A stretch of 64,000 nt of DNA from Turneriella sp. (GTDB lineage: Bacteria > Spirochaetota > Leptospiria > Turneriellales > Turneriellaceae), in contig JABARV010000002.1 in assembly GCA_019186965.1 (NCBI GenBank), positions 440,737-504,736 on the forward strand. The letters run 5' to 3'. Position numbers and translations under genes: made by a program. Below the pieces are notes generated by a model. The model saw only the letters and a list, made by a program, of their open reading frames with translations, was not told the origin of the DNA and did not search any database. The number at the start of each line of letters is the position of its first letter. Positions within the stretch are counted from its first letter, which is position 1. Positions 39,937-41,881 of the stretch are shown here, piece after piece.

Positions 39937-41229
39937 ATGAAAAAAGGCAGATTTACTCTTCCCCTCTTTTGCGCGGCGTTATTCGTAAATTGCACCGGCG
40001 AACTTCCTCTTTCCGATTTACTCAACGATTCAATTACACTCAAGTTTTTAGGTACATACGAAAGTAACGACCCTTACGGGGATTTATCGCTTTCTAAAGA
40101 CGACGTCATAAACGCAGGAATTACCGGCAACACGAACTGGAACGCCGCTTCGGACATTTATAACTACGCAAACGGCCTTACGGTAAGCCGCGTAAAATAT
40201 TACATCGACATTGCGGAAATCCGCATTGCGCAGGGGCAGGGAAAATCGGGTAGCCAAAGTATCAGCGATTACTGGAACCAGTTTGCTATTTCGCGTGAGC
40301 TCCTTTGCTCGGACTATGCAACAGTTGATTCTTCACGCCACCTACCCAACTGCTCCAGCAATAACGGCATCCAAAAACTATACGATTTTTTTAACGGTGG
40401 CTACTCGTACAAAGCAAGCGACGTTACGCCCGGTACCTACAACCATTTAGGGATTTATTTCCGCCGCTTCAACACATACCCCGCTGCACGCTTTAACGCA
40501 GCAGGACAATTTATAAACGCAAGCGGTAGCGTAGCAAGCCAAGACGCGAGCGAGCAGTCGATGACAACCGCTTTTGATAACAACGGTATCTACGGATTCG
40601 ATATGGAGAACTTACTGCTCAATCCTTACGGCGGCGCGGCGAGCGAACCTTTGATGTTTCCATTGCAACGCAAAGATTTATCAATTCAAGTACCTGGCAA
40701 TAACGAGCCTTATGTACTCGAAGTGCGCGTTTTCTTAAAAAACTTGATGATGGCTCATGTAATCCAAGGCGGTGATGGAACTGGTATCGTATACGTGGGA
40801 CCCTCGGACTGGAATATTGACCATAAATACCAAGACACCTACAACTCTGTGCGGATGGGTGGGTCTGTACTCTTAACTGCACGCACATACGAACCAGCAA
40901 GCGTAGGTTCTATTGCCATTACAGGCGGAAATGCCAACGAGTATTTTGCCGCAGTGCCTGCAGGTTCTGCTTTTAATCCACTAACAGCGCTACCTTTGGC
41001 AGCAACTTCCGCTACAACAGGCGTTATCAAAAACCTTATGCCTGGAAGCTACGATGTGTACCGCACCTGTGACCAAACAAAATGCGGAACCGCTTCTACC
41101 GCTGGAACATGCAGCACTCCTGTACCTGGCCAAGATGGTTTTCCCGAAAAAGCGGTGTCGTGTGGGCCAGCAGTGGCGGTCACTAAAGGTACGACAACAA
41201 ATTTTGGCGCATGCGGATCTTCCTGTTAA
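39937..41229 (+). CDS. Hypothetical lipoprotein, leptospiral style
   Basis: The 430-residue protein starts with a lipoprotein signal: a basic N-terminus, LPLFCAALFVNC as lipobox (FVN-C), then TGELPLSD. The mature part is polar, rich in Asn, Tyr, Ser and Gly, with a Cys-rich C-terminus (CDQTKCGT, CSTPVPG, CGP, CGSSC) that could form several disulfides. No family is recognised. It is probably an outer-surface or periplasmic lipoprotein. It lies between a barrel gene (3 bases upstream) and a small exported protein gene that overlaps its end by 19 bases. Confidence 0.65.
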   Translation: MKKGRFTLPLFCAALFVNCTGELPLSDLLNDSITLKFLGTYESNDPYGDLSLSKDDVINAGITGNTNWNAASDIYNYANGLTVSRVKYYIDIAEIRIAQGQGKSGSQSISDYWNQFAISRELLCSDYATVDSSRHLPNCSSNNGIQKLYDFFNGGYSYKASDVTPGTYNHLGIYFRRFNTYPAARFNAAGQFINASGSVASQDASEQSMTTAFDNNGIYGFDMENLLLNPYGGAASEPLMFPLQRKDLSIQVPGNNEPYVLEVRVFLKNLMMAHVIQGGDGTGIVYVGPSDWNIDHKYQDTYNSVRMGGSVLLTARTYEPASVGSIAITGGNANEYFAAVPAGSAFNPLTALPLAATSATTGVIKNLMPGSYDVYRTCDQTKCGTASTAGTCSTPVPGQDGFPEKAVSCGPAVAVTKGTTTNFGACGSSC

Positions 41230-41576
41230 CCGGTTTCATTCTATTTTTTACAATACCCCTTTTTACAGAAGATACTGCGCTTTCAATCGCACGCCGTGAA
41301 ATCCAAACGCAATGCGAGCTCATTGAAAAAGGAGATACCGCTGAATTAAAAAAACATTTTACCAAGCGCCTACAAAAACACATCGTCGGTTTTCGTATAC
41401 GCCGTGTGCAGCGTATACTCCCCCTTTACAAATTACACGACCTTGTCGGTAGCGCAGAAGAAACCACACGCGGCGGAAAACGCATCATTATAGTAAAAAT
41501 GCGTAAAGGAAACCCGCTAACAACTCTCGTTGAAATCAACGGCAAGTGGTACACAGACAGGATGTGGTTTAAGTAA
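41211..41576 (+). CDS. Small hypothetical exported protein
   Basis: The 121-residue protein has a signal peptide (MRIFLLTGFILFFTIPLFTE). The rest reads like a small alpha/beta fold of the nuclear-transport-factor or lipocalin-like kind: a helix with IARREIQTQCELIEKGDTAEL, then strands ending in TLVEINGKWYTDRMWFK. This layout is common in SnoaL/NTF2-like periplasmic proteins, but I cannot assign it. It overlaps the lipoprotein gene by 19 bases and closes the three-gene surface cluster. The 57-bp repeat array begins two bases after its stop. Confidence 0.55.
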   Translation: MRIFLLTGFILFFTIPLFTEDTALSIARREIQTQCELIEKGDTAELKKHFTKRLQKHIVGFRIRRVQRILPLYKLHDLVGSAEETTRGGKRIIIVKMRKGNPLTTLVEINGKWYTDRMWFK

Positions 41577-41577
41577 A

Positions 41578-41805
41578 CCTGCGCCCTGCGTGCGGCAAAG
41601 ACGGCATCCGTGCCGGCCGCACTACGAGGCACCTCCTGCGCCCTGCGTGCGGCAAAGACGGCATCCGTGCCGGCCGCACTGCGAGGCACCTCCTGCGCCC
41701 TGCGTGCGGCGAAGACGGCATCCGTGCCGGCCGCACTGCGAGGCACCTCCTGCGCCCTGCGTGCGGCGAAGACGGCATCCGTGCCGGCCGCACTGCGAGG
41801 CACCT
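41578..41805 (-). repeat. Four tandem 57-bp GC-rich repeats downstream of tRNA-Arg
   Basis: Units lie at 41578-41634, 41635-41691, 41692-41748 and 41749-41805, with a fifth partial start (41806-41815) that runs into the tRNA. Only a few bases differ among them. In the tRNA sense each unit contains a hairpin with arms GTGCGGC and GCCGCAC enclosing CGGCA and TGCCG. The 17-mer at each unit junction repeats the last five bases of the tRNA and its 3' flank. The frames across it in all directions are low-complexity and are not genes. Confidence 0.95.
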
Positions 41806-41809
41806 CCTG

Positions 41810-41881
41810 CGCCCTCGACAGGAATCGAACCTGTGCACATGGCTTCGGAGACCAACGCTCTATCCACTGAGCTACGAGGGC
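41810..41881 (-). tRNA. tRNA-Arg(CCG)
   Basis: On the minus strand the acceptor arms are GCCCTCG and CGAGGGC with discriminator G. The D arm is GCTC...GAGC and the T arm ACAGG-TTCGATT-CCTGT. The anticodon loop reads CTCCGAA, giving CCG. The first pair of the anticodon stem is a T-T mismatch. The CCA end is not encoded. A repeat array with copies of its 3' end follows directly. Confidence 0.93.

Follow-up and report, generated by a model that had tools for sequence, protein, structure and literature searches.

Repeats that are linked to tRNA genes have been known in Escherichia coli since 1978, without an agreed function. The stretch of Turneriella DNA analysed here (64,000 nt; hereafter the window) contains a tRNA-Arg(CCG) gene followed by a tandem array of 57-bp units in which the 3′ end of the tRNA recurs. 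The locus raises the question of what these units are, where else they occur and whether they could act as RNA.

The array behind tRNA-Arg(CCG)

The array extends over 41578–41815 (TRF: period 57, 4.2 copies, 98 % matches) and is by far the strongest of three TRF arrays in the window. The tRNA gene is recovered by the Rfam tRNA model at 41810–41881 with 66.3 bits. As the original prediction held, four near-identical units (pairwise identity 55–57 of 57 positions) lie directly 3′ of the tRNA, and the 17-mer AGGGCGCAGGAGGTGCC, found at every junction, comprises the last five acceptor bases and the discriminator G73 (six tRNA bases) plus the 3′ flank. On the minus strand there are exactly four copies of the 17-mer (Table 1); its first 10 bases occur a fifth time at 41587, the end of the array. 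The array takes up all of the sequence from the tRNA to the stop codon of a convergent ORF without a Pfam match, and no terminator-like site was found from the tRNA to the distal end of the repeats.

Table 1. Features of the tRNA-Arg(CCG) locus in the window; R1 is the covariance model described below
Feature	Position	Strand	17-mer start	R1 match	Description
tRNA-Arg(CCG)	41809..41881	minus			ARAGORN; no CCA encoded; discriminator G73 at 41810
Unit 1	41760..41815	minus	41815	41760–41813, 47.5 bits	folds
Unit 1 hairpin A	41813–41799				GGCGC(AGGAG)GTGCC; 5′ arm is the last four tRNA bases plus C
Unit 1 spacer	between hairpins A and B				TCGC
Unit 1 hairpin B	41794–41760				AGTGCGGC-CGGC(ACGGAT)GCCG-TCTTC-GCCGCACG
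Unit 2	41703..41759	minus	41758	41703–41756, 47.5 bits	
Unit 3	41646..41702	minus	41701	41646–41699, 49.4 bits	
Unit 4	41589..41645	minus	41644	41589–41642, 48.6 bits	
Trailing partial copy	41578..41587	minus			AGGGCGCAGG; tRNA-end copy and start of loop A; closes the array
Convergent 121-aa ORF	41211..41576	plus			stop codon (41576) adjoins the array

Each unit is predicted to fold at −28 to −30 kcal/mol, with two GGA-loop hairpins per unit and eight in the whole array. The fold energy of a single unit is not exceptional when compared with shuffled sequences (z = −1.0), and the evidence for structure comes from comparison across loci. The four-unit array together with the tRNA also has an alternative fold through inter-unit pairing, at −167 kcal/mol.

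Architecture of the units and conservation of pairing

A search for the 57-mer, recommended with the original prediction for the regions after other tRNA genes, returned only one related array in the genome when the array DNA was used as query; the common trait proved to be an architecture and not the 57-mer. The same genome has a second array, of 58-bp units, at the point where an nth-like gene (HhH-GPD in Pfam) ends; the units carry a copy of that gene end. Placed side by side, the arrays and the corresponding sites in sister genomes have an architecture in common, but not their stem sequences. Since sequence similarity was the wrong probe, a covariance model (R1) was built.

Hairpin A follows the plan NNNNC, a loop of ANGGAN or ANGAN, and GNNNN, and its 5′ arm is the host sequence that the element abuts. 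After a short spacer, hairpin B has an inner stem of 4 bp within an outer stem of 8 nt, the loop AYGGAT and a 3′ five-base bulge that is mostly TCTTT; in both hairpins ANGGAN is the usual loop. Among 34 units from seven genomes, parsed to fit this structure, 91.7 % of cells are paired against 63.3 % in shuffles, and 14 of 17 pairs have changed on both sides. The covariation score of this set is 0.742 against 0.202 when shuffled (0/500), and controls with slid partners reach at most 0.18. Because these units had been parsed to fit, a second pairing test without choice of structure was applied to all sites that match only the B-loop/bulge pattern GGAYGNNRTCYTYG. Pairing at 10 or more of 12 positions was found at 25 of 64 distinct sites, where 1.9 were expected; hairpin A has four or five of its five pairs in 19 of these 25, compared with about 20 % in shuffles. 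Among orthologous loci (tRNA-Leu, tRNA-Met, tRNA-Arg, pseudo-tRNA-Arg, rdgB and upstream of purC), compensatory double changes number 16, single changes 7 and breaks 2, with sequences partly shared between the comparisons. GGA is present in loop A of 51 and in loop B of 58 of 66 distinct units. The orthologous tRNA-Leu units keep the fold, and their loops are mostly ANGAN without GGA. These repeats form a double-hairpin family with conserved structure and a link to tRNA genes.

Such a pattern could also be a passive product of replication with no function, in which slippage generates tandem copies and template switching repairs quasi-palindromes. The near-identical tandem units, the hairpin A arms that match unrelated host sequences and the large excess of double changes over breaks are consistent with this explanation. 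It fails to account for loop and bulge sequences that are conserved across unrelated loci, for near-restriction to one genus or for placement at tRNA and gene ends, and is considered improbable. The original suggestion of an origin by slippage or recombination at the tRNA end may hold for the multiplication, as the near-identity of the units fits tandem duplication, but not for the unit itself, which was not born from the tRNA end.

Distribution of the family

All seven genomes of the genus yield R1 matches, 15–54 per genome (E ≤ 0.01). At E ≤ 0.05 there are at least 35 units at no fewer than 16 loci in this genome, and at least 68 units at no fewer than 44 loci in T. parva (G005); the unit counts are lower bounds, as a limited number of candidates was scored per genome. 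Across 296 genomes of the phylum, all seven of the genus and 7 of the 289 others have matches, the latter one to three weak ones each; most of these weak matches that were inspected show a similar two-hairpin plan. A contig scan for GGCAYGGATGCCGTCTTTGC found true elements in Spirochaetota genomes only, and the ten remaining matches are single sites without a full element. An Rfam scan at relaxed thresholds returned only tRNA and chance matches. The structured repeats of approximately 57 nt in Turneriella-type spirochaetes are a previously undescribed dispersed family; no description of a double-hairpin family of this kind was found in the open-access literature.

Placement relative to tRNAs and protein-coding genes

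At 6 of the 60 R1 loci a tRNA is found on the same strand no more than 150 nt upstream; chance predicts 0.043 across the whole genome. The 3′-end sites that were inspected belong to tRNA-Arg(CCG), tRNA-Ser(GCU), tRNA-Leu(UAG), tRNA-Met(CAU), tmRNA and tRNA-Cys(GCA). Orthologous two-unit arrays follow tRNA-Leu(UAG) in this genome and in T. parva. Behind tRNA-Cys(GCA) (locus L254, G000:C2:1–2400, minus strand) there are six tandem 53-bp double-hairpin units, more than at tRNA-Arg; these were not reported by R1 and were recognized from weak RF01731 matches to some of them and from reading of the sequence. In sister genomes G001, G002 and G004 one element lies behind the same tRNA-Arg and is followed by a second tRNA-end copy, with about 10 shared bases in the G002 orthologue. 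G006 has no element behind this tRNA; it was rejected as an empty site since its downstream flank is not orthologous, so that insertion boundaries are not defined by it.

Most of the loci in this genome and in T. parva are not at tRNAs, and to this extent the occurrence in many places unrelated to tRNA genes, which the original prediction had named as one part of the grounds for its refutation, is what was found. In a crude ORF-based sort of 37 non-tRNA loci, 19 fell clearly within long ORFs, 8 in sense and 11 in antisense orientation, and approximately 10 are intergenic on the strand of the upstream gene and mostly begin a few bases from its stop codon. Within rdgB, an antisense element occupies the same place in L047 (G000), L053 (G006) and L192 (T. 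parva). Its GGA loops and pairing are kept in three species while the stems have changed, and it apparently extends the protein in frame.

Individual loci show further arrangements. Upstream of tRNA-Ser(GCU), at L231 (G000:C3), the tRNA-Ser 5′ end (GGAGCGGTGGCTG) recurs in an approximately 73-bp unit that is repeated twice. At L248 (T. parva 3165370–3165423) tRNA-Lys has an element directly at its 5′ end, on the other strand; no further tRNA-linked copy with this orientation was seen. At L192, L112, L076 and L019 a different palindromic repeat (of the CCTGCCCTGAGC..TCGAAGG type) lies within the hairpin-B region; its presence at several independent loci would fit a preference for hairpin loops as targets of insertion. 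In tRNA-Arg(UCU)-like copies at L254 (G000:C2) and L236 (T. parva 1819.6–1819.85 kb), the T-loop is interrupted by a complete element. Judged from sequence, these copies look like pseudo-tRNAs, as their 5′ acceptor strand is mismatched.

The position flush at tRNA ends, at tmRNA and at stop codons, together with strong hairpins and an array that takes up the convergent gap in the window, would suit a module that acts without CsrA: one that protects, insulates or helps to process the 3′ ends of tRNAs and mRNAs, or forms a two-way barrier between convergent genes. Since the elements have neither a U-run nor a terminator-like site, half of the non-tRNA loci are within ORFs and the GGA loops would be without explanation, this role is decidedly improbable. 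Still less can be said for the original idea of a decoy, in which the tRNA 3′-end copies compete for 3′-processing enzymes. A tRNA-end copy does recur in every unit, but it amounts to only about six bases, with the rest of the acceptor/T-arm domain absent. RNase Z-type enzymes require that domain, and the same element is found away from tRNAs, which makes a decoy extremely improbable.

At 18 of 42 loci (approximately 43 %) the flank (the sequence before loop A) reappears beyond the array as an exact copy of 7 nt or more, compared with 3.0 % for mismatched pairs. A single geometry is thus common to tandem partial copies, tRNA-end copies and flank copies: the host end, then the loop, the complementary arm, hairpin B and once more the host end. 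The main rival explanation is a selfish or mobile DNA palindrome whose hairpins serve as single-stranded DNA sites for a recombinase or a replication-linked process, with any RNA effects incidental. The element would be inserted together with a copy of its target end, and tRNA 3′ ends would be favoured, as they are by many integrating elements. The occurrence of both orientations within ORFs, the flank copies, the element in the T-loop of the tRNA-Arg-like copies and the tRNA-end copies after single elements in three sister genomes all point in this direction. Against it, the loops fit a known RNA–protein site, the elements at tRNA 3′ ends are on the tRNA strand, a regular insertion motif has not been established and no enzyme was found. 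A search for a transposase linked to the double-hairpin repeats gave none. Y1_Tnp genes are present in five of the seven genus genomes and absent from G003 and G004, both incomplete (82–83 % complete), and those of G000 (C7, 22–27 kb) are not near R1 matches; Y1 transposases, considered as possible movers, showed no clear link to the repeats. A mobile DNA palindrome is a real possibility, though not a probable one; spread as DNA and effect as RNA can be compatible.

Comparison with known repeat and RNA families

The family resembles both the E. coli tRNA-linked repeats (TLRs) and the TwoAYGGAY RNAs and belongs to neither. The TLRs (rtT/RttR, RrA/RrB/RrF) directly follow a tRNA or rRNA gene and carry a copy of its 3′ end, as the units in the window do with their tRNA, and the likeness drawn in the original prediction is apt as a resemblance. 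A further TLR trait is transcription with the tRNA or rRNA precursor, from which the RNA is then processed. TLRs number one to five units per locus (PMC8144298). The TLR copy comprises 18–19 bp of the RNA 3′ end, whereas the Turneriella copy has approximately 6–10. TLRs also lie in tRNA and rRNA operons, whereas the window array lies immediately downstream of a tRNA and most other copies of its family lie elsewhere. The E. coli tyrT/RttR unit (178 bp) shows no ANGGAN double hairpin and no R1 match, and only 3 of 22 TLRs are predicted CsrA ligands (PMC8144298).

TwoAYGGAY (Rfam RF01731) likewise consists of two adjacent hairpins with AYGGAY-type loops, which the Turneriella units share; the TCTTT bulge is particular to the latter. 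Its published description draws on human gut, Gammaproteobacteria and Clostridiales (PMC2864571), and it is a proposed ligand of CsrA (PMC4333381). At the gathering score of 43 bits RF01731 has no match in nine genomes, the best in the genus being 30.7 bits. Sub-threshold matches to model positions of about 45–113 coincide with several elements and leave out the outer part of the model. In a distant spirochaete (G054), several two-hairpin repeats with AYGGAY loops were seen at L257–L259; this genome gave the best TwoAYGGAY score observed, 39.6 bits (below the cut-off), and possibly represents an independent expansion.

A row of several GGA-loop hairpins, suited to dimeric CsrA, is also the plan of CsrB, CsrC, RsmY and RsmZ, sponge RNAs that bind CsrA and lower its activity. 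Unlike the Turneriella array, these RNAs have no tRNA linkage; Rfam scans gave the array no match to a known CsrB/Rsm family, and no promoter of its own was identified for it. REP/BIME and other small palindromic mobile repeats are similarly short, dispersed, hairpin-forming and sometimes clustered. Unlike REP/BIME, the Turneriella stems vary in sequence between copies, the units of an array have the same orientation and the 5′ arm is host-derived.

A possible role as CsrA-binding trailer

The tentatively preferred reading, whose chances fall somewhat short of even, is that of a tRNA-linked dispersed repeat, tandemly multiplied, which acts as a CsrA-titrating trailer RNA. The anatomy, the family, the flank copies and the near-identity of the units are observed; for the order of events we infer that a dispersed element was placed flush on the 3′ end of tRNA-Arg(CCG), followed by a copy of that end, and that tandem duplication brought the number of units to four. 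Co-transcription with tRNA-Arg is plausible: read-through from the tRNA promoter would yield the array as a trailer, whose paired GGA-loop hairpins could bind CsrA dimers. Titration of CsrA would then scale with tRNA transcription, as has been suggested for the E. coli TLR-derived RNAs RrA/B/F.

A CsrA-binding RNA produced by read-through from the tRNA is favoured on the strength of the GGA loops, the presence of csrA and several precedents. GGA is the core of the CsrA site RUACARGGAUGU, where it occupies a hairpin loop (as quoted in PMC8668096), and CsrA of Leptospira biflexa binds a GGA hexaloop in EMSA (PMC8668096). The E. coli rRNA-operon TLR RNA RrB binds CsrA in vitro via GGA motifs (PMC8144298), and TwoAYGGAY offers a further parallel. 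In this genome csrA adjoins fliW. A correlation between csrA and the repeats was set aside as uninformative, since csrA is present in nearly all relatives, across the whole phylum, and its occurrence does not follow that of the repeats.

Several observations weigh against a CsrA-binding trailer. The tRNA-Leu units mostly have ANGAN loops, copies in ORFs are antisense as well as sense, csrA and the repeats differ in distribution, and the array has its inter-unit alternative fold. FliW may already serve as the CsrA antagonist. The antisense rdgB element, with loops and pairing kept in three species, indicates that conservation does not need a sense RNA, and DNA-level correction of palindromes can produce compensatory changes without selection. 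A broader version, in which a genus-wide, spreading element settles exactly at tRNA, tmRNA and mRNA 3′ ends, rebuilds hairpin A from the host end, distributes putative CsrA sites over the genome and couples tRNA transcription to CsrA, appears unlikely.

The array adds a second, apparently unrelated case of tRNA-linked repeats from a distant phylum, with a conserved two-hairpin module and CsrA-type loops. Stems that vary with their pairing kept, and a first arm that is host sequence, pose the question of how such repeats are copied. The presence of the module behind at least five tRNAs and tmRNA makes it testable whether tRNA trailers act as CsrA sponges. The family would also be a candidate CsrA ligand in a phylum whose CsrA antagonist is assumed to be FliW, and may tie tRNA transcription to CsrA control.
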